Shown here one piece after another: positions 23,125-34,802 of a stretch of 56,932 bases of DNA. Both the position numbers and the translations under genes were made by a program. Below the pieces are notes generated by a model that searched no databases, was not told the origin of the DNA, and saw nothing but the letters and a program-made list of their open reading frames with translations. Positions within the stretch are counted from its first letter, which is position 1. Each line of letters begins with the position of its first letter. The stretch is from positions 1 to 56,932 of the forward strand of contig JAUXAL010000016.1 of the NCBI GenBank assembly GCA_030619925.1, written 5' to 3'. Origin of the DNA: Phycisphaerae bacterium (GTDB lineage Bacteria; Planctomycetota; Phycisphaerae; Sedimentisphaerales; Anaerobacaceae).

Positions 23125-23173
23125 TTAGTGACTATTCATTGTTGTCAAAACGAAAATTCAGGAAGTGATAATT

Positions 23174-24193
23174 ATGAAAAAAGCATTAGCAGTAGTTGTA
23201 TTCGTCGCTATAGCTGTTGTTTTTATTGCAATTGGTTGTAAGTGGAAGGAAGAAACCGAGGGCAAGTACCGTATAGCGGTGATTCCCAAGGGGACGACGC
23301 ATGTTTTCTGGAAGTCGATTCACGCCGGGGCGGTCAAGGCCGAGCAGGAATTAAAAGACTCCGGCCTGGAAGTGGAGGTTATATGGAAAGGGCCGCTTAA
23401 GGAGGACGACAGAGAGTCGCAAATCAGGGTGGTGGAAGATTTCGTAACACGCGGCGTCTCAGGAATCGTGCTGGCACCGTTGGACGATGTGGCACTGCGA
23501 ATGTCGGTCAAAGACGCCGTAAACAACGGTATCCCGGTGGTGATAATCGATAGCGGACTAAAAAGCGAAGATTACACCAGTTTTGTGTCGACGGACAACG
23601 AAATCGGCGGCAGAAAGGGCGGCGAACGACTTGCTGAGATTTTGGACGGAAAAGGCAAGGTGATTATGCTGCGTTACCAGGAAGGCTCAGCCAGCACGAT
23701 GAAGCGGGAGCAGGGATTCCTGGATGTGTTAAAAGAAAAATACCCGGAAATCGAGGTGGTCAGCGCAAACCAGTACGGCGGTGCAACAACAGAAAGCGCA
23801 TATATAGCGAGCGAGAACCTGCTGGCGCCGCTGCGTGCATCTGACGGAGGGCTGACGATTGATGGAATCTTCTGCCCGAATGAGTCAACGACATTCGGGA
23901 TGTTACGGGCACTTCAGGACAGCGGGCTGGCGGGCAAGGTCAAATACGTCGGCTTTGACAGCTCCGACCGGCTTGTACAAGCGATGGAGAACGATGAGAT
24001 TCACGGGCTGGTTCTGCAGGACCCAATCAATATGGGTTACTTAGGGGTCAAGATGATGGTGGCACACCTGCGTGGCGAGCAGGTGGACAAACGAATCGAC
24101 ACCGGCTCGTCGGTGGCGACTCCGGAAAATATGGATGACCCGAAGATAAAGAATCTGTTGGAGCCGGATTTCAAAAAATGGCTGAACGAATAG
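23174..24193 (+). CDS. Sugar ABC transporter substrate-binding lipoprotein (RbsB-like)
   Basis: 339 codons from the ATG at 23174, chosen over a GTG three codons upstream because AGGAAG lies 8 bases before it. A hydrophobic N-terminus ends in FIAIGC, a lipobox. The mature part is a periplasmic-binding-protein type I fold of the ribose/galactose class: YRIAVIPKGTTHVFWKSIHAGA, GIVLAPLDDVALRMSVKDA, IPVVIIDSGL and GIFCPNESTTFGMLRAL. It delivers a sugar, possibly a pentose or a derivative, to the downstream ATPase and permease. The 3' end overlaps the ATPase gene by 16 bases, indicating one operon. Confidence 0.9.
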   Translation: MKKALAVVVFVAIAVVFIAIGCKWKEETEGKYRIAVIPKGTTHVFWKSIHAGAVKAEQELKDSGLEVEVIWKGPLKEDDRESQIRVVEDFVTRGVSGIVLAPLDDVALRMSVKDAVNNGIPVVIIDSGLKSEDYTSFVSTDNEIGGRKGGERLAEILDGKGKVIMLRYQEGSASTMKREQGFLDVLKEKYPEIEVVSANQYGGATTESAYIASENLLAPLRASDGGLTIDGIFCPNESTTFGMLRALQDSGLAGKVKYVGFDSSDRLVQAMENDEIHGLVLQDPINMGYLGVKMMVAHLRGEQVDKRIDTGSSVATPENMDDPKIKNLLEPDFKKWLNE

Positions 24194-25719
24194 ATTCGGA
24201 CGAACCAACAGTACGGCTCGAGATGCATGGGGTTTGTAAGCGTTTTGGGGCGACGGTAGCGCTTGAAGATGTGGGCATCAAGGTAGCAGCGGGCCAGGTG
24301 CTGGCGCTGGTGGGAGAAAACGGCGCCGGCAAGAGCACACTGATGAAAGTCTGTTCGGGGGCGGTCAAGGCGGATTCAGGTCAAATGTGGCTGGACGGTG
24401 CGCCGTATCAGCCGGGCAATCCACTCGAAGCTCGACGGGCCGGCGTGGCGATGATTTATCAGGAGCTTTCACTGACGCCGCACCTGAGCGTGCAAGAAAA
24501 CATCATGTTAGGTATGGAACCGGCAACGCTGGGTGTAGTTCACAGGAGGGAGGTACGCCGGCGGGCAATCGAGGCGATTAAGGAATTTGATAATCCGGAG
24601 CTGACCCCGGACGCACGGGTCAGCAAGTTGTCGGTGGGTTCGCAGCAGTTGGTGGAGATTGCGCGGGCTTTGGCCATCGGCTGCCGGGTATTGGTTCTCG
24701 ACGAGCCGACCAGCAGTCTGACGCAGCAGGACGTCGAAAGGCTGTTTGAGCTTATTGGGCGGCTGAAACGGCAGGGCAAAGCCATCGTTTATATTTCGCA
24801 CTTTATTGAAGAGGTCAAGCGCGTCGCGGATCGGGTGACGGTTCTGCGCGACGGAAAGGTAGTCGGCAGCAGCGATGTGGCTGCCATCACGACCGACGAG
24901 ATAATAGCGCTGATGGTGGGTCGGCAGGTTGAGGAGCTTTATCCGCGCTCTGCGCGTAAAGCTGGGGAGGTCATTTTGGAGATTGAAGACTTGGCCGGCG
25001 TGGAGAAACCTGAGTCGGCGAGTTTGCAACTGCGTCGCGGAGAGGTGCTGGGCATCGCCGGGCTGGTGGGGGCGGGGCGAACTGAACTGCTGCGGAGCCT
25101 GTTCGGGCTCGAATCGGTGCGCAAAGGAAGAATTCGCCTTGGGGTTTATACCGGTCCAGCTTCACCGGTGAGGCGATGGATGCAGGGAGCCGGCATCTTA
25201 AGCGAAGACCGCAAGGAAGAAGGATTGGCGCTTTCTCTGAGCGTGGCGGACAACGTGACGCTTTCCAAACTGAGGGGCTTTGGCCCGCTTGGTTTAGTAT
25301 TGCCGAGCAGACAGGATAGAGCTACCCAGCGCTGGATAGAGCGGTTGGGTATCCGCTGCCGTGGGCCTCGACAATCGGTGTCGTCTCTGTCGGGCGGTAA
25401 CCAGCAGAGGGTGGCGCTGGCCCGATTGCTTCAGCACGACGTAGAAGTGTTACTGCTGGACGAGCCGACGCGGGGTATTGACGTAGCAGCCAAGGCGATG
25501 ATTTACAAGTTGATAGACGCATTGGCAAGCGGTTCGGCTGCCGAAGGCCGAGCGCCCAAAGCGGTGCTGATGGTAAGCAGTTACTTGCCGGAGTTGATGG
25601 GCGTCTGCGACCGAGTAGCGGTGATGTGCCGTGGAAGGCTGGGCCTGACGCATCCGATTGATGAAGTGGATGAGCACAAGCTCATGCTGGAGGCGACCGG
25701 ACAGGAGGCAAGTGCATGA
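24178..25719 (+). CDS. Sugar ABC transporter ATP-binding protein (RbsA/MglA-like)
   Basis: 513 codons with two nucleotide-binding domains. The first has Walker A GENGAGKST (46-54), signature LSVGSQQLVEIARAL and Walker B VLVLDEPTSSL. The second has the degenerate Walker A GLVGAGRTE typical of RbsA-class second domains, then signature LSGGNQQRVALARLL and Walker B LLLDEPTRGID. It hydrolyses ATP to drive uptake through the permease encoded next. The gene starts inside the end of the binding-protein gene and ends in an ATGA overlap with the permease gene. Confidence 0.95.
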   Translation: MAERIDSDEPTVRLEMHGVCKRFGATVALEDVGIKVAAGQVLALVGENGAGKSTLMKVCSGAVKADSGQMWLDGAPYQPGNPLEARRAGVAMIYQELSLTPHLSVQENIMLGMEPATLGVVHRREVRRRAIEAIKEFDNPELTPDARVSKLSVGSQQLVEIARALAIGCRVLVLDEPTSSLTQQDVERLFELIGRLKRQGKAIVYISHFIEEVKRVADRVTVLRDGKVVGSSDVAAITTDEIIALMVGRQVEELYPRSARKAGEVILEIEDLAGVEKPESASLQLRRGEVLGIAGLVGAGRTELLRSLFGLESVRKGRIRLGVYTGPASPVRRWMQGAGILSEDRKEEGLALSLSVADNVTLSKLRGFGPLGLVLPSRQDRATQRWIERLGIRCRGPRQSVSSLSGGNQQRVALARLLQHDVEVLLLDEPTRGIDVAAKAMIYKLIDALASGSAAEGRAPKAVLMVSSYLPELMGVCDRVAVMCRGRLGLTHPIDEVDEHKLMLEATGQEASA

Positions 25720-26726
25720 GCGATAAGCAGTTGGCGCCGGCGGAAAAAGAGGTGTTCGGGTCGAATTGGCGAAACTGGCTGAATACTCTGGGCTCGGTAT
25801 TGGCTCTGGCGGCAGTGTACGGACTGTTTGTGCTGATTGCGCCGCCGAGTTTTGCGACCGCGAGGAACCTGGAAATGATTGCCCGGCAGACGACGATAGT
25901 CGGCGTTGCGGCATTGGGCATGACGTTGGTGATTATCTCCGGCGGGATTGACCTGTCCGTCGGTTCGATCGTGGCGCTGAGCACGGTGGTGATTGCCTGG
26001 CTGCTGCAGTATGCCGGCGTCGGTCCGCTGACGGCGGCACTTGGGGGCGTGGCGGCGGCGGCATTTTTCGGATTGGTCAGTGGGTTGCTGATAACACGGC
26101 TGCGTGTGGTGCCGTTTATTGTTACTTTAGGTATGATGTTGGTGGTTCGCGGGGCGGCCAAGGGTATCGGACGGGAGCAGAAAATCGATGTTGACCCGGA
26201 ACGGCTCAGATGGCTGGAGGAGCTGCTGGCCTCGCTGCCGAAAGAGCGAAGCTGGATGTTGCTGCCGCCGGGGGTCTGGCTTTTGATTTTTCTGGCGGTG
26301 GCTGTGGCGGCACTGTTGCGGTATACGCGGCTGGGACGGCATACATTTGCCATCGGTTCGAACGAGCAGACGGCCCGGCTGTGCGGGGTGGCGGTGGAGC
26401 GGGTCAAGGTATTAGTTTTCACCCTATGTGGGGCCTTTGCCGGCCTGGCCGGGCTTATGCAGTTTTCGCGGTTGACCGTGGGTGACCCCACGGTTGCAGT
26501 AGGGCTGGAGTTAAATGTGATAGCCGCGGTGGTAATCGGCGGCGGCAGTCTGGGCGGTGGGGAAGGATCCATCTTAGGTACGCTGGTGGGGGCGCTGATT
26601 ATGACCGTTATCGCTTCCGGGTGCACGCAGAGGGGGCTGCCGAACTGGGTACAGGAGATTATCACCGGCGCGATTATCGTCGTGGCGGTGGCCCTGGACC
26701 GGCTGCGGCACCGTCGTGCGGTCTGA
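25716..26726 (+). CDS. Sugar ABC transporter permease (RbsC-like)
   Basis: 336 codons with about eight to ten hydrophobic helices. Family hallmarks: GVAALGMTLVIISGGIDLSVGSIVALS, then GLLITRLRVVPFIVTLGMM, then YTRLGRHTFAIGSNEQTARLCGV (cytoplasmic loop coupling to the ATPase), and VIGGGSLGGGEGSILGTLVGALI. An insertion of about 35 residues (IGREQKIDVDPERLRWLEELLA onward) precedes helix 5. The start codon overlaps the ATPase stop codon (ATGA). As the last gene of the operon it completes a binding protein-ATPase-permease importer; the substrate cannot be fixed by sequence alone. Confidence 0.94.
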   Translation: MSDKQLAPAEKEVFGSNWRNWLNTLGSVLALAAVYGLFVLIAPPSFATARNLEMIARQTTIVGVAALGMTLVIISGGIDLSVGSIVALSTVVIAWLLQYAGVGPLTAALGGVAAAAFFGLVSGLLITRLRVVPFIVTLGMMLVVRGAAKGIGREQKIDVDPERLRWLEELLASLPKERSWMLLPPGVWLLIFLAVAVAALLRYTRLGRHTFAIGSNEQTARLCGVAVERVKVLVFTLCGAFAGLAGLMQFSRLTVGDPTVAVGLELNVIAAVVIGGGSLGGGEGSILGTLVGALIMTVIASGCTQRGLPNWVQEIITGAIIVVAVALDRLRHRRAV

Positions 26727-26826: not shown

Positions 26827-26855
26827 TTGACAAAGGTGCACTGAATTGGTTTAAT
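26827..26855 (+). promoter_or_regulatory. Promoter of the trp operon
   Basis: Perfect -35 TTGACA (26827-26832), a 17-base spacer, and -10 TTTAAT (26850-26855, 5 of 6 matching TATAAT). Initiation would fall near 26861-26863, only a few bases before the leader peptide ATG. Confidence 0.65.
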
Positions 26856-26863
26856 ACTATATT

Positions 26864-26938
26864 ATGAAGCTAATTAGCCGCAAAAATATCAGTAACTGGT
26901 GGTGGCCTGCCGATATATGTTCGACAGGCGAGCGGTGA
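26864..26938 (+). CDS. trpL: trp operon leader peptide with three tandem Trp codons
   Basis: 24 codons from ATG at 26864 to TGA at 26936-26938. The peptide begins MKLISRKNISN and codons 12-14 are TGG TGG TGG (26897-26905), followed by PADICSTGER. It precedes trpE by about 120 bases and lies between the promoter and an intrinsic terminator. This is the architecture of ribosome-mediated attenuation: a ribosome stalled at the Trp codons in tryptophan shortage leaves the second pairing segment free. No ribosome binding site is visible because the predicted transcript starts almost at the ATG, so translation may be leaderless. An in-frame TAA lies 12 bases upstream, so no longer form is possible. 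Confidence 0.82.
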   Translation: MKLISRKNISNWWWPADICSTGER

Positions 26939-26988
26939 TTTGCTGTAAAAAATTTGTTAAGTTGGAGAAGAAAACGCAGCCTGTCGAA
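26905..26988 (+). promoter_or_regulatory. trp attenuator: pause hairpin and competing antiterminator
   Basis: Segment 1 (26905-26913, GCCTG, one mismatch, CGA) pairs with segment 2 (26921-26929, TCG, mismatch, CAGGC) around a 7-nt loop, starting on the last Trp codon. Segment 2 (TTCGACAGGC, 26920-26929) is also perfectly complementary over 10 bases to segment 3 (GCCTGTCGAA, 26979-26988). Segment 3 covers the top of the terminator's 5' arm and most of its loop. The three folds are mutually exclusive, as in classical amino-acid operon attenuators. Confidence 0.78.
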
Positions 26989-27009
26989 AAAACAAGCTGC
27001 GTTTTTTAT
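26971..27009 (+). terminator. Intrinsic terminator of the trp attenuator
   Basis: A perfect 10-bp stem, AAAACGCAGC (26971-26980) with GCTGCGTTTT (26996-27005), has a 15-nt loop and is followed by TTATTTG. Its position before trpE, and the overlap of its stem top and loop with the antiterminator segment, identify it as the attenuation terminator. Confidence 0.85.
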
Positions 27010-27059
27010 TTGTATTTTCGCCTGTTTGCGAATAAAAATTGCAATGGGAGGTTTGAACT

Positions 27060-28652
27060 ATGGACGATTACAGACAAATAATACATAGTGCCGAGCCGGG
27101 CCAAGTTGTGCCTATCGTCAAAGAGATTGATATTGACGAGCCGGTGGATTTTTTTGCCAGGCTAAGCGACTACGGCCGGGCCCAAAACTGCTGCTTATTT
27201 GAGGCGAGTGACTATTTGTCGGAAAATGCCTTGAGTTTCGGCACGGCAAAGCCGGCACTTTACCTTACCGGAACGGGTGCTGATTTTAGCATCAAAGCCC
27301 TGAGTAATACCGGCAGACGCATATTAGATTACTTGTCGACTAAGAAAGAGAGGTTCGCTTTTTGCGAGTCGGTCGAATTCGGCTCGGGAGAAATTATCGG
27401 ACGAATCAAACAGGCCAGAGAGATAGTAGATGAGCAAACACGGCTGACATGCATAAATCAAATGGACGTATTACGGGCGGTTGCGTTTGCCTTTAGCTTA
27501 GCGAGCAAACCGTTCCGTGTAACTTGCGGGCTGCTCGGAGCTTTGAGCTACGATTTTATAGACCAGTTTGAGAAACTTCCTCCCAGCGAAACAGACCTGT
27601 TAGGCAATCCTGATTATGAGCTTTATTTCGCTGACAATATTTTTTTGATGGACCACGAGCACAGCAAAGGGTACGTGATTGTCAACGCAATAATAACCAA
27701 CGACGACCGTGACACTATAGTCGCTGAGGCGCAGGAGTGTTTCGATTACTATTTCAATATTGCAGGGGTCCAGATACCAAAAGGACACCGGTTTACCGGT
27801 CCGCTTCCGGCTACTTCAACTGATACCAGCCAGGAAGAATATGAAAAAATAGTTCGTAACGCCAAGCAGCACATCATCGACGGTGATATTCTTCAGGTTG
27901 TTCTGAGCAGGACAATAACCGAGCCCTGTCCGGATGAGCCGCTGGACGTTTATAAGCGGCTGAGGAAGTTGAATCCTTCGCCATATATGTTCTATCTAAA
28001 TACACCTAATACGATACTGATGGGGTCGAGTCCGGAGTTGAATCTGCGGGTCAGCGGGACCGAAAAGCGCAATGTAGAGATTAGGCCGATAGCCGGTACG
28101 AAGCCTCGGGGCCGAGTCGGCAAGACAATTGATGCCGACACTGATTTTAGATATGAGGCTGAACTGAAGCTCGACCGCAAGGAATTGACTGAGCATATAA
28201 TGTTGGTTGATTTGGCCAGAAATGATATTGCGCGTGTGGCTGAGCCGGGCAGCAGAGTTGTTACCGAGTTACTGACGGTCGAAAAGTATGCTTCGGTGCA
28301 ACACCTGGTAAGTAATGTTAAGGGCACACTCGCATCTGAGCTCGACGCATTGAGTGCGTATCTTGCCACGATGAATATGGGGACACTTACCGGAGCTCCG
28401 AAGATTGAAGCAATGAAGCTTATTCGTCTGTTTGAAAAAACCAAACGGGGCTACTACGGCGGGGCTGTTTGCTATCTGACTGTGGACGGCCAATTCGACA
28501 GTTGTATCACTATAAGGAGTCTGCAGGTCAGAGACCACACGGCTTATATCCGGGTCGGCGCGGGTATCGTGCACGACAGTGTCCCGAAGACCGAATTTGA
28601 GGAGACCGAACATAAGGCAAGGTCCTGTTTGCGCGCGATTCGAGGTGAATAA
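27060..28652 (+). CDS. trpE: Anthranilate synthase component I
   Basis: 530 codons with GGGAGG 9 bases before ATG. The C-terminal chorismate-binding domain is clear: GDILQVVLSRTI, PSPYMFYLNTPNTILMGSSPELNLRV, EIRPIAGTKPRG, EHIMLVDLARNDIARV, GTLTGAPKIEAMKLI and GAGIVHDSVPKTEFEETEHKA. The N-terminal part (about 1-200) is the TrpE-specific region. With TrpG it converts chorismate and glutamine to anthranilate, the first tryptophan-specific step. The N-terminal LLES-type motif for Trp feedback is not exact (FEASDYLSEN near residue 45), so feedback sensitivity cannot be judged. It is the first structural gene after the attenuator. Confidence 0.95.
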   Translation: MDDYRQIIHSAEPGQVVPIVKEIDIDEPVDFFARLSDYGRAQNCCLFEASDYLSENALSFGTAKPALYLTGTGADFSIKALSNTGRRILDYLSTKKERFAFCESVEFGSGEIIGRIKQAREIVDEQTRLTCINQMDVLRAVAFAFSLASKPFRVTCGLLGALSYDFIDQFEKLPPSETDLLGNPDYELYFADNIFLMDHEHSKGYVIVNAIITNDDRDTIVAEAQECFDYYFNIAGVQIPKGHRFTGPLPATSTDTSQEEYEKIVRNAKQHIIDGDILQVVLSRTITEPCPDEPLDVYKRLRKLNPSPYMFYLNTPNTILMGSSPELNLRVSGTEKRNVEIRPIAGTKPRGRVGKTIDADTDFRYEAELKLDRKELTEHIMLVDLARNDIARVAEPGSRVVTELLTVEKYASVQHLVSNVKGTLASELDALSAYLATMNMGTLTGAPKIEAMKLIRLFEKTKRGYYGGAVCYLTVDGQFDSCITIRSLQVRDHTAYIRVGAGIVHDSVPKTEFEETEHKARSCLRAIRGE

Positions 28653-28660
28653 TGATGAAG

Positions 28661-28722
28661 TTCGTAGTTCATTGTTCGTAGTTCATTGTCTATGAACTAC
28701 CAATTGCCAACTATGAACTCGA
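28661..28722. repeat. Inverted 7-nt repeat array between trpE and trpG
   Basis: Left arm: TTCGTAG, TTCATTG, TTCGTAG, TTCATTG (28661-28688). Right arm, after TCTATGA: ACTACCA, ATTGCCA, ACTATGA (28696-28716) in the same 7-base register and largely complementary (AGTTCAT against ATGAACT). Confidence 0.7.
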
Positions 28723-28738
28723 TTAAGGGCAAAATCTT

Positions 28739-29338
28739 ATGGAAGATACAAGTAGAAAAGTTTTGTTCATCGACAATTTTGATTCGTTTACGTACAATCT
28801 GGTCGATGATTTCTGTAAGCGCAGCTGCCGGGCCAAGGTTTACCGTGCCGACACCGAGCTTGAGGAGCTTAAGCGGGTTGCCGATGAATTTGCCCCTGAC
28901 CTTCTCGTGATTTCGCCCGGGCCGGGCACGCCGGACACGGCCGGCGTCTCGCTTTCGGCGGTAGATTATTTCAAAGACAAACTGCCGATATTCGGCGTAT
29001 GCCTGGGGCATCAGGTAATCGTGCAGTATTTCGGCGGGAAAATCGGCCATGCGCCGGAGCCGATGCACGGCAAACCCTCAAGGGTAGCACACAACGAAAA
29101 GGGCGTATTTGCCGGCGTCGAAAATCCACTGCAAGCGGGACGCTATCACAGTCTTTGTGTGCTGGAGCTGCCGGATTGTCTGGAAAAAACTGCTGAGTTC
29201 GAGGGGATTGTTATGGGCGCCCGCCACAGAGAGCTCCCGATATTTGGCGTACAATTTCATCCGGAAAGCATTTTGACACCCGCGGGCGGTAGAATAATCG
29301 AAAATGTGTTGTCGATAGCAGAAAAACAGAAAACCTAA
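28739..29338 (+). CDS. trpG: Anthranilate synthase component II (glutamine amidotransferase)
   Basis: 199 codons. Class I glutamine amidotransferase with all triad residues visible: C88 in FGVCLGHQVIVQYFGG, and H174 and E176 in FGVQFHPESILTP. The N-terminus FIDNFDSFTYNLVDDF and SPGPGTPDTAGVS (oxyanion-hole region) are typical of TrpG/PabA. It supplies ammonia from glutamine to TrpE. A PabA role in folate synthesis alongside is possible, but the operon context favours TrpG. It starts 86 bases after trpE, a gap filled by the 7-nt repeat array. Confidence 0.93.
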   Translation: MEDTSRKVLFIDNFDSFTYNLVDDFCKRSCRAKVYRADTELEELKRVADEFAPDLLVISPGPGTPDTAGVSLSAVDYFKDKLPIFGVCLGHQVIVQYFGGKIGHAPEPMHGKPSRVAHNEKGVFAGVENPLQAGRYHSLCVLELPDCLEKTAEFEGIVMGARHRELPIFGVQFHPESILTPAGGRIIENVLSIAEKQKT

Positions 29339-29345
29339 AAAGAAA

Positions 29346-29393
29346 CCCCACACTTACGTGTGGGGAATGGATACCACACACGTGAGTGTGTGG
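29346..29393. repeat. Double-hairpin repeat, copy 1 (trpG-trpD gap)
   Basis: Hairpin a: CCCCACAC (29346-29353), loop TTAC, GTGTGGGG (29358-29365). Hairpin b: CCACACAC (29374-29381), loop GTGA, GTGTGTGG (29386-29393). The same pair recurs at 31198-31256, with covarying bases in hairpin b. Confidence 0.8.
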
Positions 29394-29441
29394 AGGAAAG
29401 AAACGTAGTACGAGGTTCGAATTTTGTTAAGGTAGCTGAAG

Positions 29442-30461
29442 ATGACAACAATAACAGAATATATTGAGCCGTTACTGCGGAGGGAAAGTTTGAGCTTTGA
29501 GCAGGCGACGAGCCTGCTGGATGTTATTTTTGAAGGACAGGTGCCTGAAGTTCAGATTGCGGCGTTTCTTACAGCGATGCGGGCCAAGAAAGCAACGGCG
29601 CCGGAACTGGCGGGGCTTGCCAAATCGCTGCGAAGCCATGCTGTTGCTGTGAAGGTTGATGTTGATAATTTGGTTGATACCTGCGGCACAGGGGGCGGGT
29701 CGATTAAAACGCTCAATATTTCTACGGCGGCGGCGATAGTGGCAGCCGGTGCGGGGGTCTATGTGGCCAAGCACGGCAATCGCGGGATAACCAGCAAATG
29801 CGGCTCGGCTGACGTGCTTGAGGAATTGGGTGTCAAAATAGATGCTGGTGCTGAGACTGTGGCGGAGTGTATCAGACAGGCGCATATCGGATTTATGTTC
29901 GCACCTATGTTCCATCCGGCGATGAAATATGTTCAGCCGATACGCAAGGGTCTGGGCTTTCGAACGGTATTTAACATTTTAGGACCTTTGGCCAATCCGG
30001 CTAATGCAGCCGCCCAGGTGATGGGCGTGGCTGATGAAAATTTGATGCAGATCGTTGCCGAAGCACTTAAGTTGCTGGGTACTCGGTACGCAATGGTGGT
30101 TCACGGTGATGGAATGGATGAGATAAGCACACTAACAACCACCAAAATACTCGAACTAAAAGAAGGTCAAATCGCAAGCAAAGAATTGAACCCGGAAGAT
30201 TTCGGGATTGCGTTAGCCGGTATAGACGAGTTAAAAGTGACCGATGCCAAAACGAGCGCGAAGGTTTTAAGGGACATACTGAGCGGTAAAGAGACCGGGC
30301 CGCGCAAGGATATTGTTGTTCTAAATGCCGCCGCTGCGATAATCGCCGGCGGCTTAGCCGAGGATTTCACCTCGGCAATCAAGTCAGCAGAGGCCTCAGT
30401 CAGCGATGGGCGCGCGTTAGCGTCTCTGGATAAGTTAATCGAAATCTCGAATAAAGCGTAA
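29442..30461 (+). CDS. trpD: Anthranilate phosphoribosyltransferase
   Basis: 339 codons, the normal length. Signatures: DTCGTGGGSIKTLNISTAAAIVAAGAGVYVAKHGNRGITSKCGSAD divided over the PRPP and anthranilate sites (residues about 80-125), then FMFAPMFHPAMKYVQPIRKGLGFRTVFNILGPLANP, and VVHGDGMDEIS near residue 220. It transfers phosphoribose from PRPP to anthranilate. It is a stand-alone TrpD, not fused to TrpG. It starts 103 bases after trpG, downstream of the double-hairpin repeat. Confidence 0.95.
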   Translation: MTTITEYIEPLLRRESLSFEQATSLLDVIFEGQVPEVQIAAFLTAMRAKKATAPELAGLAKSLRSHAVAVKVDVDNLVDTCGTGGGSIKTLNISTAAAIVAAGAGVYVAKHGNRGITSKCGSADVLEELGVKIDAGAETVAECIRQAHIGFMFAPMFHPAMKYVQPIRKGLGFRTVFNILGPLANPANAAAQVMGVADENLMQIVAEALKLLGTRYAMVVHGDGMDEISTLTTTKILELKEGQIASKELNPEDFGIALAGIDELKVTDAKTSAKVLRDILSGKETGPRKDIVVLNAAAAIIAGGLAEDFTSAIKSAEASVSDGRALASLDKLIEISNKA

Positions 30462-30558
30462 AACTTAAAACGAAAAATGCAAAACCATAGTGTAAAACTC
30501 AAAACTTTTTATTTTTCAATTGTGGTTTTTAATTTTTAGCTTTGAGCTTTCAGTTTTT
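30461..30558. repeat. Inverted 7-nt repeat array between trpD and trpF
   Basis: Left arm from the last base of the trpD stop codon: AAACTTA, AAACGAA, AAATGCA, AAACCAT (30461-30488), then AAACTCA and AAACTTT. Right arm: AATTTTT, AGCTTTG, AGCTTTC, AGTTTTT (30531-30558) in 7-base register. The arms are A-rich and T-rich and roughly complementary. The right arm ends 2 bases before the trpF ATG. Confidence 0.65.
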
Positions 30559-30560
30559 TT

Positions 30561-31184
30561 ATGTTGATACCGAAAGTCAAAATTTGTGGTATTACCAATT
30601 ATGAGGATGCTGTGGCAGCACTGGATATCGGTGCGGATTTATTGGGCTTTAATTTTTATCCGGAAAGCCCGAGGTTTGTAACACCGGAAAAAGCAACGGA
30701 GATAATAAACCAGCTGCCGGGTTTTATAGATATTGTCGGCGTGTTTGTGAATGCTTCGTTTGAGAAAGTCCGGGAGACGATAAGCCAATGCCAATTAGAC
30801 TGGGTTCAATTGCATGGCGATGAAGACCCACAGTTCTGTCGGTTGTTTCTTTCTCTTAATGTAAAAACTATGAAAGCACTGCGGATAAAAGACCAAACAG
30901 ACATCGCAAGGGCAGATGATTTTTTCACAGATGCTGTTTTGTTGGACGCTTTCCAGCCTGAAAGGTACGGCGGCACAGGGCTGACCTTCGACTGGAATAT
31001 CATAGGGCATATCGGCAAGCGTGTTTTCTTGGCTGGCGGAATAAATCCCGATAACGCAGCAGAAGCGGTTAAACTGGGAGTTTACGGGATCGATGTCTGC
31101 AGCGGTATCGAAGCTCAGCCGGGCAAAAAAGACCATAAGAAAATGAAAAAACTGTTCGAGAATATAAAGCACTTGCGAGGGTGA
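30561..31184 (+). CDS. trpF: Phosphoribosylanthranilate isomerase
   Basis: 207 codons. TIM-barrel TrpF signatures: KVKICGITNYEDAVAALDIGADLLGFNFYPESPRFV with the catalytic Cys at residue 9, DWVQLHGDEDPQFC, VLLDAFQPERYGGTGLTFDW with the catalytic Asp, and FLAGGINPDNAAEAV plus GIDVCSGIEAQPGKKDH at the phosphate site. It isomerises N-(5'-phosphoribosyl)anthranilate. It follows trpD directly; the expected trpC is absent from this position. No ribosome binding site is obvious because the repeat array fills the upstream bases. Confidence 0.95.
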   Translation: MLIPKVKICGITNYEDAVAALDIGADLLGFNFYPESPRFVTPEKATEIINQLPGFIDIVGVFVNASFEKVRETISQCQLDWVQLHGDEDPQFCRLFLSLNVKTMKALRIKDQTDIARADDFFTDAVLLDAFQPERYGGTGLTFDWNIIGHIGKRVFLAGGINPDNAAEAVKLGVYGIDVCSGIEAQPGKKDHKKMKKLFENIKHLRG

Positions 31185-31197
31185 GCCGGGCAAGAGA

Positions 31198-31256
31198 CCC
31201 CACACTTACGTGTGGGGAATGTCAGAAAAAGGATACCACACATGTAAATGTGTGGT
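31198..31256. repeat. Double-hairpin repeat, copy 2 (trpF-trpB gap)
   Basis: Hairpin a is identical to copy 1: CCCCACAC (31198-31205), TTAC, GTGTGGGG (31210-31217). Hairpin b: ACCACACAT (31235-31243), loop GTAA, ATGTGTGGT (31248-31256). Compared with copy 1, a C-G pair is replaced by T-A on both sides of the stem, so pairing is kept. Confidence 0.8.
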
Positions 31257-31291
31257 GGCAGACCACGCATACACAATATGAGGAATGAGAT

Positions 31292-32470
31292 ATGAAATAT
31301 AAAGGCAGGTTCGGGGACTATGGCGGCTTCTATGTGCCGGAGGTTTTGATACCGGTCTTGGAAGAGTTGGAGGAGGCGTTTTATCGCTTTTACGAGGACG
31401 AGCAGTTTGTAGCGGAGCTTGCGCAGCTTTCGAAGAATTATGCCGGCAGGCCGAGTTCTCTTTATTATGCGAAAAGATTCAGCGAGCATGTTGGTTTTAA
31501 GGTGTATCTGAAACGCGAAGACCTTCTGCACGGCGGAGCGCACAAGGTCAACAACACACTCGGGCAGGGCCTCTTAGCCAAATATATGGGCAAGGCCAAA
31601 CTCATTGCTGAGACAGGCGCCGGCCAGCACGGTCTGGCTACGGCGATGATTGGGGCCTTGTTTGGGATGGAGACGAAAATCTTTATGGGCGTAACCGATA
31701 TAGAGCGCCAGAGCATCAACGTTCACAAGATGAAGCTCTGTGGTGCGGAAGTTGTCCCTATTGAAGGTGGAACAGGAACGCTCAAAGACGCTATCAACGA
31801 CGCACTTCGCTACTGGACGGCTCACGTTACCGATACATTTTATCTTTTCGGTTCGGCCTGTGGACCGCATCCGTACCCTACGGTGGTAAAACATTTTCAA
31901 ACCTGTATCGGCAAAGAGACCAGGCAGCAGTGTCTCGAACAAATCGGCAGGCTGCCGGATATCGTTGTGGCCTGCGTGGGAGGAGGCAGTAATGCAATAG
32001 GCATTTTTTCCGGCTTTATAGATGATAAGAACGTCAGGTTAATTGGGGTCGAAGCCGGCGGTCGGAGCTTAAGCAGCGGCAAGCACGCTGCGACGCTTGT
32101 AGCCGGGAGGGTCGGTATCCTGCACGGTGCGAAGGCGTATCTGCTCCAGGACAAAGAAGGTCAGATTCATGATACCGAATCGGTAAGTGCGGGGCTGGAT
32201 TATCCTGCTGTTGGTCCGGAGCATTGCCTGCTAAAAGATACCGGCAGAGCCGAGTACGTTGCTGCAGAAGATGAGGATGTGCTTGACGCCTTCGGGCTGC
32301 TGAGCAAAACCGAGGGGATACTGCCGGCCCTGGAACCCTCGCACGCTCTGGCATTTCTTTGCAGCCAGAAAGGAAAGTTGGATGCTGAGCAGATAGTGGT
32401 AGTAAATCTTTCCGGCCGAGGAGATAAGGATGTTGGCATTGTAGAAAAACGTCGACCTCTCGAGAACTGA
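31292..32470 (+). CDS. trpB: Tryptophan synthase beta chain
   Basis: 392 codons, TrpB1-like. The PLP lysine is K85 in [13 protein letters not shown]. Other signatures: [39 protein letters not shown] (family TAAGPHPYP) and the phosphate loop [12 protein letters not shown]. The C-terminus has [11 protein letters not shown]. It condenses indole with serine to give tryptophan, normally in complex with TrpA. GAGGAATGAG lies shortly before the ATG. In this operon trpA does not follow directly; one foreign-looking gene lies between. Confidence 0.96.
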
Positions 32471-32497
32471 TTATTAATTATCAGTAGGAGATCGATT

Positions 32498-33895
32498 ATG
32501 AACAAGATTACAGACCCGACCGAAACGTTTAAGATATGGCTTACAATTATTATGATTATCAGCATAACCAGTCGCTCTTATGGACAGGAGTCGCAATTGG
32601 GATGTGGTACCGGAGAAATAGAATGGCCTATGCACCACATTGATAATGCTCTATACAATCATAACTCCCTGAGTCCGGGGGACGTCGACAAAGATGGTTT
32701 TACGGACTACGCGGTTATTCATGAGGGACCGGATAAATATACGATTGTGTTTCATCCCGGAAAAGACGGTGACGTGCGAAAGCCCTGGAAAAAGGTAACA
32801 ATCGGAGAGGGCGGCAATCCGGAGTATTCATACTTTGGCGACTTTGACGGTGACGGCAATCTTGATGTGGTGGGCTGCGGTGGTTATAGCAGGAAACTCC
32901 CAACAGGGGTTAAGATATTCTGGGGACCTGATTCCAGCCGGGTATTTAATGGTAGCACCTGGACCGATGGAGGTTATATTCCGGGTACTAAGGACCGGGG
33001 TCATTTTCTTTATATCGAAAGCCGCGATATAAACGACAACGGCGCAACAGACATCGTGGCGGGAGGCAGAGTCCACAAGGTCAATCACACAAAAGCCGGC
33101 CTGATATGGATCGAAGCGCCAAGTAATAAGAGTGACCGCCGGGATCTTTCAAAGTGGAAAGTACATGATATTGATTCGAATTTGTTGAGTGGTCACGGTT
33201 TTGTTTTCGTTGATATCGACCAGGATGGAGATGACGACATTGCTGTTGCGAATGCGGACTGGGACACTTCGGACTCCGAAGAACGAGTGCTGTGGTATGA
33301 GAATCCCAGGACTGGTTCAGCGAAGCAGAAGCAGCCCTGGCCTATGCATGTGGTTTATAGTGGTCACGAATTTTTTCCCAAACCCCAGGTTGCAGTCGGT
33401 GATCTGGACGGCGATGGTCTGACTGACCTGTGTGTACAAACCGATAGTCACATTTTCTATTTTAAGAAGATGGGTTTAGAACCGGTTTCCTGGAAACGAA
33501 TAGTAATTAATAAGCCGGAGGTTGCACGATGGGTAAGCAGGCCTACAAAAATGGCTGACATCAACAACGATGGGAAAATGGATATCGTGGGGATGCTTAT
33601 TCATAATTACGGGTACATGCCATCGGGAAAAACCTCTGTTTTTTGGATGGAGTACAGTGGTAACGAGCCGGGGACGGATAATTGGACTACTCACGTCATA
33701 AAATGGTCTGACCCCCTATTTTCTGGTAAGCCATTTCAAGGTGAGAAATGGGACCATTGCCGGTTTGATGATGTGGACAAGGATGGCGACCTGGATATCG
33801 TCGGCAATTGTGAAGAGCATTACAAGTTCGTATCCGGGAAACAGAAGCAGACTCTCGTAGGCGTAGTTTGGTTTGAGAATAAGCTTGTTCCGTAG
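32498..33895 (+). CDS. Secreted FG-GAP/VCBS-repeat protein inside the trp operon
   Basis: 465 codons starting 28 bases after trpB, with AGGAG before the ATG. A hydrophobic stretch near residues 12-26 followed by SYGQES indicates a signal peptide. It has about seven calcium-binding FG-GAP-type loops: DVDKDGFTDYAV, DFDGDGNLDVVG, DINDNGATDIVA, DIDQDGDDDIAV, DLDGDGLTDLCV, DINNDGKMDIVG and DVDKDGDLDIVG, together expected to form a beta-propeller. Planctomycetes have many such exported proteins of unknown role. It is not a tryptophan enzyme; its place between trpB and trpA suggests insertion into the operon and co-transcription. Confidence 0.85.
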   Translation: MNKITDPTETFKIWLTIIMIISITSRSYGQESQLGCGTGEIEWPMHHIDNALYNHNSLSPGDVDKDGFTDYAVIHEGPDKYTIVFHPGKDGDVRKPWKKVTIGEGGNPEYSYFGDFDGDGNLDVVGCGGYSRKLPTGVKIFWGPDSSRVFNGSTWTDGGYIPGTKDRGHFLYIESRDINDNGATDIVAGGRVHKVNHTKAGLIWIEAPSNKSDRRDLSKWKVHDIDSNLLSGHGFVFVDIDQDGDDDIAVANADWDTSDSEERVLWYENPRTGSAKQKQPWPMHVVYSGHEFFPKPQVAVGDLDGDGLTDLCVQTDSHIFYFKKMGLEPVSWKRIVINKPEVARWVSRPTKMADINNDGKMDIVGMLIHNYGYMPSGKTSVFWMEYSGNEPGTDNWTTHVIKWSDPLFSGKPFQGEKWDHCRFDDVDKDGDLDIVGNCEEHYKFVSGKQKQTLVGVVWFENKLVP

Positions 33896-33989
33896 CCAAG
33901 AGCACAATGTCAGCTGACGATAGAGTTTTCTGAGGCTTTGAGTTGCTGACTTCTGAATTCCAGGCCATAGTCAGAAAAGGATATGATTG

Positions 33990-34802
33990 ATGAAAACATA
34001 TAAACAAGTTTTTTCTGAATTAGGAGAACAAAAAAGGGCAGCGTTGATACCGTTTTTCGTAATCGGCGACCCGGATTTTGATACAAGTCTTGCGATTGTA
34101 AAAACAGCTATCGACGCAGGGGCGGATGTTCTGGAATTGGGCATACCATTCTCCGACCCGATAGCGGATGGGCCAACAATCCAAAAGGCCGATATTCGCG
34201 CAATGAGAAGCGGGATGACCGTCCGGAAAGGGCTGGAGTTTATCCGCAAGGTCAAGAATTACAAGGATATTCCAATTGGACTGCTGATGTATTACAACTT
34301 AGTTTACCAGTACGGAACGGAACAATTCTTCACCGATTTTCACCAGGCCGGCGCCAACAGCGTTTTGGTTGCTGACTTGAGCATTGATGATGCGGACGAA
34401 ATTGTTGAACCTGCCGTCTCGGCGGGTCTTGACACTGTCTTTATGGTTACGCCAAACACCGGGCCCGAGAGAATGAAACTGATTGCTTCCAGGACCACCG
34501 GCTTTATCTACACCGTTTCGGTGTTAGGTGTTACCGGCATCAGAGAAAAGCTTTCCGATATGATTGGAGGGCTGGTCGGCAAATTGAAGAAGCTTACCGG
34601 CGTGCCGATATGTGTAGGTTTTGGAATCAGCAAAGCCGAACATGCAGCCACGGTTGCGTCGGCGGGAGCCGACGGTGTAATAATCGGTTCAAAAATAGTG
34701 GGGTTGATTGAGAGTAATTTAGGCAACAGAGAAAAAATGCTTGCTGAGATTTCGACTTTCTTAAGTGAAGTCAAAAGTACGATTTCACCCTGCACTAATT
34801 GA
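33990..34802 (+). CDS. trpA: Tryptophan synthase alpha chain
   Basis: 270 codons from the ATG at 33990, chosen over a TTG one codon upstream; AAAAGGA precedes it. With this start the catalytic residues fall at E49 (VLELGIPFSDP) and D60 (IADGPT), the same numbers as in the enteric enzyme. Further signatures: TTGFIYTVSVLGVTGIRE and VGFGISKAEHAATVASAGADGVIIGSKIV (phosphate site). It cleaves indole-3-glycerol phosphate to indole and glyceraldehyde-3-phosphate. Its substrate normally comes from TrpC, which is not encoded in the window. A long perfect hairpin overlaps its stop codon. Confidence 0.96.
   Translation: MKTYKQVFSELGEQKRAALIPFFVIGDPDFDTSLAIVKTAIDAGADVLELGIPFSDPIADGPTIQKADIRAMRSGMTVRKGLEFIRKVKNYKDIPIGLLMYYNLVYQYGTEQFFTDFHQAGANSVLVADLSIDDADEIVEPAVSAGLDTVFMVTPNTGPERMKLIASRTTGFIYTVSVLGVTGIREKLSDMIGGLVGKLKKLTGVPICVGFGISKAEHAATVASAGADGVIIGSKIVGLIESNLGNREKMLAEISTFLSEVKSTISPCTN

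Follow-up and report, generated by a model that had tools for sequence, protein, structure and literature searches.

The window (the whole 56,932-nucleotide stretch of DNA analyzed here, which forms contig 7 in a draft assembly of 4.0 Mb and 141 contigs) contains tryptophan biosynthesis genes in the order trpE-G-D-F-B-(one unassigned ORF)-A and, immediately ahead of trpE at 26827-27060, a promoter, a short ORF with tandem Trp codons, and a series of possible RNA helices that includes an intrinsic terminator (Table 1). Transporter-like ORFs of permease families lie 5′ of this element, at 23165-26726, and run in the same direction.

Table 1. Features of the trp leader region and of the trp genes that follow it in the window
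Feature	Position	Strand	Evidence
-35 hexamer TTGACA	26827-26832	+	Read from sequence
-10 hexamer TTTAAT	26850-26855	+	Read from sequence
Transcription start (predicted)	26861-26864	+	6-9 nt past the -10; on or at most 3 nt from the leader ATG
Leader ORF, 24 codons + TGA, MKLISRKNISNWWWPADICSTGER	26864-26938	+	Sequence; related ORFs; in-frame pN/pS
Trp sensor, three tandem TGG, codons 12-14	26897-26905	+	Sequence; W.?W in 72/74 regions of the order
Segment 1	26905-26913	+	Pairs with 26921-26929, one mismatch; five core pairs covary
Segment 2	26920-26929	+	Perfect complement of segment 3; covaries
Segment 3	26979-26988	+	Inverted-repeat search and covariation
Intrinsic terminator (3:4), arms 26971-26984 / 26992-27005, T6 27002-27007	26971-27007	+	Inverted repeats; nine inner pairs covary
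Shine-Dalgarno GGGAGG of trpE	27046-27051	+	Sequence
trpE, anthranilate synthase component 1	27060-28652	+	NCBIfam PRK13564, 479.3 bits (cut-off 471)
trpG	28739-29338	+	TIGR00566, 192.7 bits (cut-off 121.05)
trpD	29442-30461	+	TIGR01245, 416.4 bits (cut-off 199.05)
trpF	30561-31184	+	PRK01222.1-4, 236.1 bits (cut-off 215)
trpB	31292-32470	+	TIGR00263, 590.6 bits (cut-off 392.45)
trpA	33987-34802	+	TIGR00262, 308.6 bits (cut-off 102.35)

A first-pass annotation of this DNA had proposed a trp attenuator with a promoter TTGACA-17-TTTAAT, whose coordinates are correct as read directly (17 nt separate the two hexamers), and with a 24-codon leader ORF carrying TGG at codons 12-14, which our reading confirmed base for base, from the ATG at 26864 to the TGA at 26936-26938. 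Segment 1 begins on the final base of the third Trp codon, and the hairpin placed at 26905-26929 is formed by the pairing of 26905-26913 with 26921-26929, with one mismatch. The antiterminator had been described as a perfect 10-bp helix of 26920-26929 with 26979-26988, and our inverted-repeat search likewise found 10 of 10 pairs between these two segments. The terminator described at 26971-27009 was borne out as a hairpin followed by a T tail; its stem had been given as 10 bp, and this part did not hold, the arms being 14 nt long and 93% complementary. Computational folding of the leader, which the same annotation had suggested, gave a z-score of -3.46 for 26864-27015, with none of 200 shuffles equally stable. 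A generic consensus promoter and terminator scan reported neither the leader promoter nor its terminator, the promoter being passed over because the scan rule requires an A at position 2 of the -10. As expected of a ribosome-mediated trp attenuator, a tandem-Trp leader ORF, whose translation is indicated by coding constraint, precedes the trp genes; the pairings 1:2, 2:3 and 3:4 are mutually exclusive, with 1:2 the weakest; and an intrinsic terminator with a U tract, conserved among relatives, lies 5′ of trpE. We class the element as a ribosome-mediated trp transcription attenuator, with a probability of about 93%.

The host group had been taken to be planctomycete, and this agrees with the 77 loci with a related TrpE found in named genomes, nearly all of which are metagenome-assembled genomes labelled, for example, Planctomycetota, Phycisphaerae, Phycisphaerales or Sedimentisphaerales (an order within Phycisphaerae). 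Two of these loci, with the labels Kuenenia and Lokiarchaeota, look mislabelled. The named relatives put the window's genome in Planctomycetota, class Phycisphaerae, order Sedimentisphaerales. Our search for TrpE covered 100 genomes, the window's own among them, from family f1, to which the window belongs, and from further families in the order; it gave matches in 98, and the DNA upstream of trpE was taken for 76 genomes, with 14 of the 100 relatives left out where trpE was cut, absent or weak. Two of the 76 regions were excluded, one ending 24 nt before trpE (G013) and one masked (G001), leaving 74 that could be assessed. An ATG-started ORF of 10-60 codons containing W.?W, with a sigma-70-like promoter (at least 9/12) located 4-13 nt 5′ of the ATG, is present in 72 of these 74 regions, all ahead of the same type of trpE in Sedimentisphaerales. 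The same design occurs in 1 of 1480 dinucleotide shuffles of these regions (71 of 1480 for the ORF alone), and the attenuator is thus more than a product of chance. A typical leader peptide of the relatives is MRQINRKNTxNWWWPAG, and the two remaining regions (G070 and G074, both of genus g56) keep a leader, in which W-R-R-P provides one Trp and two Arg codons. In the promoter table of the relatives, the -35 is TTGACA or one change from it in 68 of 73 rows, the exceptions being G062, G078 and G088, together with the masked G001 and G052, where our script had mis-assigned the promoter. Absence of Trp codons or of the competing pairings from close relatives had been named in the first-pass annotation as grounds for rejecting attenuation; we ran this check, and in addition to the leader in 72 of 74 regions, best 1:2, 2:3 and 3:4 helices were found for each of the 72 leaders.

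Covariation in related trp leaders, another check proposed earlier, was examined in a MAFFT alignment made from sequence only, with 67 of the 72 leaders; those with in-frame insertions (G009, G012, G015, G067 and G083) were left out. Helix cores were chosen after inspecting which pairs hold, and exclude the outermost pair of 2:3, three inner pairs of 1:2 and five outer pairs of 3:4. All three cores show compensatory changes. For the 2:3 core, made up of 9 of the 10 pairs in the window, paired cells amount to 92.4% and double-change cells to 33, where shuffles have 13.7 +/- 4.1; in the 1:2 core (5 of 8 pairs) the values are 94.3% and 15 against 5.1 +/- 1.9; and in the 3:4 core (the 9 inner pairs of 14 columns) they are 92.4% and 53 against 20.4 +/- 5.4. 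For each helix, the cell counts, percentages and covariation scores of the core were reached by none of 500 shuffles, and sliding the partner columns by 1-3 positions lowered pairing to 16-52%. Pairs outside the cores are poorly kept (1:2 inner pairs in 25-59 of 67 leaders, the 2:3 outermost pair in 34 of 67, 3:4 outer pairs in 40-49 of 67). The double-change cell counts are not to be read as probabilities, because the leaders are related sequences and because shuffles frequently equalled the real alignment in how many pairs, and how many pair types, have a double change. A cross-pairing control mostly agreed: for 57 of 72 leaders, segment 2 scored higher with the segment 3 of the same leader than it did on average with those of other leaders; family f7 (8 rows), taken as a whole, showed no preference for its own, scoring 18.2 with its own segment 3 and 18.9 with those of other families. 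With the Trp-codon leader, the competing helices and these compensatory changes, the earlier reading of the region as an attenuator is supported.

Constraint on the leader ORF is visible within its frame. Over codons 2-11 of 36 equal-length f1 leaders, pN/pS is 0.58 in frame, compared with 1.04 and 0.91 in the other two frames, and in 71 of 72 leaders the first TGGTGG is in frame with the ATG. The one taken as a frame exception, G037, has an out-of-frame TGGTGG ahead of its in-frame WWW. The in-frame constraint and the frame of the TGGTGG make translation of the leader ORF very probable and point to mild constraint on the peptide. How the ribosome would reach it is suggested by the position of the promoter, a point absent from the first-pass annotation. 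In the window, 8 nt separate the -10 from the leader ATG; this spacing is 6-10 nt in 65 of 73 rows; the others have 11-13 nt, save the masked G001 and G052 (promoter mis-assigned by script). Agreement with the Shine-Dalgarno consensus over 4 nt or more (an anti-SD match) is found before 4 of 72 leader ATGs versus 56 of 72 trpE starts in the same genomes, and no Shine-Dalgarno was seen in the sequence before the window's leader ATG. Because the spacing from -10 to ATG is short and an anti-SD match is rare before the leader ATG, the leader mRNA is most likely leaderless. The promoter-ATG pattern is found elsewhere in the window's own genome, where exact TTGACA-17-TAnnnT-6/10-ATG occurs at 18 sites, versus 1 for a reversed control, and a TnnAAT version at 3 versus 0. 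Some of the ORFs behind these sites are long, and include what we take to be tsaD-like and polA-like genes; among the short ORFs that follow such sites, none resembling an amino-acid leader was seen by eye.

We then asked the predicted folds for the helices picked beforehand. With segment 1 masked and segment 4 untranscribed, 2:3 is predicted in 68 of 72 leaders (it is partial in G062 and absent in G066, G078 and G088), and with segment 2 masked the terminator is predicted in 71 of 72. When segment 4 is absent and nothing is masked, 2:3 beats 1:2 in 41 of 72 leaders, the window's included, and 1:2 wins in 28 of 72; strong termination without any translation is therefore not predicted. For the whole window leader folded from 26916 (likewise from 26912), the terminator forms even with segment 1 masked. 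After segment 4 has been made, the terminator is thus favoured in stability, and the choice between the folds has to be a kinetic one, as it is in the classical attenuation model of Yanofsky. A ribosome's footprint extends about 12 nt ahead of the A site; segment 1 of the window would accordingly be covered when codon 14 occupies the A site, and segment 2 when the ribosome has reached the TGA. In the mechanism that we propose, RNA polymerase would start at most about 3 nt from the leader ATG, and a ribosome would load on the emerging 5′ AUG. When charged tRNA-Trp is scarce, this ribosome would stop at codons 12-14 and cover segment 1, segment 2 would pair with segment 3 before segment 4 exists, no terminator would form, and the trp genes would be transcribed. 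When tryptophan is abundant, the ribosome would reach the TGA and cover segment 2, and transcription would stop at the 3:4 hairpin and its T6.

The TrpE encoded behind this leader matches PRK13564, which we take to be the enteric-type TrpE family, and aligns over nearly its full length with chains 1i1q and 1i7q (presumably the Salmonella and Serratia enzymes), better than with other solved chains; it matches enterobacterial TrpE at 37-41%. In a 26-row TrpE tree with several long branches, an arbitrary root and trimmed starts, from which f23_G190 and a second TrpE-like protein of the window's own genome were left out, the window's TrpE groups with families f1 and f7 of its order and the long-branched f19_G139 (96/96). 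This group falls outside another one, with 98/96 support, in which all remaining Phycisphaerae rows but those of f5 are placed, and two rows from the wider phylum join Escherichia coli and Buchnera (96/96). Two other families of the order differ in their TrpE: the f5 ORFs are about 700 aa long and, by length, like TrpEG fusions, and two f4 genomes group in the tree with canonical TrpE. A Trp-rich leader ORF ahead of a hairpin and T run is present in all 10 of the f5 and f4 regions taken (7 of 11 f5, and 3 f4), with 8 of the terminators called by script and two (L175 and L176) judged by eye. These results point to a replacement of trpE in some members of the order, perhaps through transfer; attenuation accompanies each kind of TrpE.

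A covariance model, R1, was built from 67 aligned leaders and used to follow the element through the class and phylum. Among 199 genomes of the class, 28 gave a match (27 belong to Sedimentisphaerales), and the model found five leaders unused in its building (G255, where the leader precedes a TrpE-like start, G015, G067, G074 and G083). Among the genomes listed, the order members with no R1 match are G063, G064, G068, G070 and G072; of these, G070 was missed although it keeps the W-R-R-P leader. The single match outside the order, in G135 (E 0.0056), lies on contig C19, and the TrpE-type match of that genome is on C77; second matches in G005 (contig C1, E 0.0081, with no Trp leader in its surroundings) and G071 (on the antisense strand, E 0.0083) were put down to chance. 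Across the phylum, R1 matched 6 of 199 genomes, 2 of them in the order, and the four matches outside it (E 1e-4 to 0.009) were taken as chance terminators; by eye, no trp genes were seen near them among ORFs of at least 60-80 aa within about 1.5 kb on each side. No second leader copy was found in the window's own genome, where the next best R1 match has an E of 2.81.

A scan of 42 regions upstream of trpE covered further families of the class. Of the 7 regions from family f10, 5 contain a Trp-rich leader ORF (for example, with CGWWWRW) located 6-7 nt after a -10-like box, with promoter scores of 8-10 out of 12, and in f16 1 of 12 regions has such an ORF after a -10-like box (score 9); for L197 and a few other regions the trpE frame may be wrong and a second scan of them cut short. 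Short Trp-rich ORFs with promoter scores of 4-7 were also seen in L182, L188, L191, L194, L196, L213, L221 and L222, and were not counted. In the three f10 genomes of genus g78 no U-tract terminator was seen; these have a stretch able to pair with the trpE start over 9-12 pairs, and this helix is in the minimum-energy fold of 2 of the 3. This arrangement would be translational attenuation. A broader picture, which we hold tentatively and would put at somewhat under even odds, is that leaderless translation is a conserved working part of Trp attenuation in Phycisphaerae. The sensor would then be a mobile module placed, within one order, before three kinds of TrpE (enteric-like, canonical and long TrpEG-like, the last two often with Shine-Dalgarno-like leaders), and the f10 lineage would use a similar leaderless Trp leader with another output, in which the ribosome-binding site and start codon of trpE are masked and transcription is not ended.

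Of the other explanations for the element, the closest to ours keeps the attenuator and has its leader translated ordinarily from a longer 5′ UTR, with a promoter further upstream and the near-ATG promoter unused. Leadered versions do seem to exist, given that a Shine-Dalgarno-like stretch was seen by eye close to the leader ATG in 6 of the 10 Trp-rich f5 and f4 leaders; against this, the near-ATG spacing in 65 of 73 rows, the single shuffle in 1480 with the same design and the 4-nt anti-SD match in only 4 of 72 leaders make such a start unlikely for the window's type of leader. Considerably less probable still is that the element serves mainly to make the terminated leader RNA, or the peptide, for action in trans in the manner of rnTrpL/peTrpL in Sinorhizobium meliloti, with attenuation secondary. 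The excerpt of PMC7298713 available to us provides the precedent, the N-terminus of the leader peptide is constrained, and the spacer between segments 2 and 3 (26930-26962 in the window) looks conserved by eye in f1, although it is not needed for the switch. Moderate conservation of the peptide is, however, expected for any translated sensor, the competing pairings covary, and 27 of the 28 class genomes matched by R1 belong to the order and, as far as checked, have the match at the trpE leader position.

Control of the terminator by a different tryptophan sensor, with the Trp codons incidental, would have parallels in other bacteria, where T-box and TRAP control trp terminators. We consider such a T-box or TRAP-like sensor scarcely credible here, since the window has no T-box match at the gathering score and tandem in-frame Trp codons adjoin segment 1 in nearly all relatives. 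The same-direction transporter-like ORFs upstream need a terminator of their own, and an ordinary terminator of that operon together with a random ORF could in principle give the same appearance; this reading has practically no probability left, being already refuted by the conservation of the design beyond shuffles and also by covariation and coding constraint. We retain ribosome-mediated attenuation, with a leader that is most likely leaderless, as the explanation of the element.

The mechanism is textbook and ordinary in its logic; what is new, as far as the literature searched goes, is the lineage and the near-universal, probably leaderless design. The first-pass annotation knew of no description in this group, and this is consistent with our searches of open-licence PubMed Central, judged by title and the start of the abstract, where nothing relevant was found on planctomycete attenuation, leader peptides or leaderless starts, and where an earlier description of attenuators beside different TrpE types did not turn up. 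The part available to us of a 2013 Rfam-based survey (PMC3766115) suggests gamma-proteobacteria as the possible origin of amino-acid attenuators and very few transfers between lineages. The attenuators described here are near-universal in one order and unseen by the Rfam model in the five leaders tested, and such surveys therefore undercount. At the gathering score, a tRNA was the sole Rfam match in the window, with neither T-box nor Trp_leader reported; RF00513 (Trp_leader) gave no match in the window up to E 10, where unrelated weak matches were the only ones, nor in four relatives up to E 1, and scored 93.1 bits on the E. coli leader used as a positive control. The group also lets one test whether the first ribosome is better timed for attenuation when it loads on a leaderless mRNA, because about 70 genomes have probably leaderless leaders and several members of two sister families have Shine-Dalgarno-like ones.

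Comparison with known systems shows which parts of this design are shared. The E. coli trp leader has segments 1-4, and resembles the planctomycete element in having a leader ORF with Trp codons, these segments, and a terminator before trpE. It differs in length, with 45 nt (14 codons plus stop) annotated for trpL and 24 codons for the window's leader ORF, in that it is recognized by RF00513 whereas the window and four relatives are not, and in that the planctomycete leader ORF, unlike that of the enterobacterial attenuator, is probably leaderless. R1 touches the start of E. coli trpL with 17.2 bits (E 0.031), and we make no claim of homology because this barely exceeds the 15.2 bits obtained on the antisense strand of the window's own leader. 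Probably closer in its start is trpLE(G) of S. meliloti, where, in the portion of PMC7298713 available, the 5′ end of the attenuator RNA begins with the ATG of a leaderless trpL that contains Trp codons, with termination before trpE(G). The window differs from it in having separate trpE and trpG (long TrpEG-like ORFs are found in f5), and, for S. meliloti, the same source describes the trans-acting rnTrpL/peTrpL, whereas the planctomycete leader is known here from its DNA. Classical trp attenuators are described in Actinobacteria, as far as the accessible text of PMC1262725 extends. In the excerpt available of PMC4046766, a putative leader with three consecutive Trp precedes the trp operon of Corynebacterium glutamicum, 4 of 8 retrieved small ORFs, a set that includes leader peptides, are leaderless, and a title cited there states that the ilvBNC leader peptide is made without a ribosome-binding site. 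The C. glutamicum trp and ilvBNC attenuators are alike to the window's element in the three-Trp leader and, probably, in leaderless small ORFs and in a leader peptide made without a ribosome-binding site; their host belongs to the Actinobacteria, and the likeness that we draw is one of design.

Variation in the leader peptide was seen among relatives of the window. In one genus (g56; loci L069, L068, L070 and L073), Arg codons are taking the place of Trp codons in the leader, with the motif YWWRPQ in G078 and G088 and YWRRPQ in G074 and G070. The leader ORFs of five other genomes, G009, G012, G015, G067 and G083 (L078, L022, L013, L056 and L052), contain in-frame insertions 5′ of the Trp codons, and some of these insertions resemble small palindromic repeats. 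Two stretches that are not required by the attenuator look conserved by eye within the window's own family (f1).

Further features of the window
Feature	Position	Location	Sequence or motif
Stretch that looks conserved	26930-26962	between segments 2 and 3	AGCGGTGATTTGCTGT
Stretch that looks conserved	27010-27050	3′ of terminator	TTTGTATTTT...AATAAAAATTGCAAT
ORF, 465 aa	32498-33895	between trpB and trpA	repeated DxDGDG-like motifs

The 465-aa ORF has no NCBIfam match, and we take its repeats to be FG-GAP/VCBS-like; trpC is absent among the genes scanned (27060-34802). In the window's genome, exact TTGACA-17-TAnnnT promoters lie 6-10 nt 5′ of the ATG of long ORFs, presumably tsaD-like and polA-like (L261, L263 and L266), a spacing that hints at additional leaderless genes.

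TrpE of the window type is also present on public contigs labelled Candidatus Kuenenia stuttgartiensis (L138; 71% identity) and Lokiarchaeota (L156; 64% over 84 residues), which are probably mislabelled or contaminated bins.

Within the window's order, all ten loci retrieved from families f5 and f4 (L169-L178) have their own Trp-rich leaders, followed by a hairpin and T run, and 6 of the 10 leaders show a Shine-Dalgarno-like stretch by eye. These genomes encode either long TrpEG-like ORFs or canonical TrpE, and attenuation therefore coexists with several kinds of TrpE. Outside the order, in family f10, three loci (L184, L207 and L208, from G102, G111 and G128) carry a Trp-rich, leaderless-looking leader with GWWWRW or GWLWRW, after which no U-tract terminator was seen by eye. 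In 3/3, the trpE start codon region can pair with a stretch ~65 nt upstream, and this pairing potential suggests that trpE in these genomes may be subject to translational attenuation.
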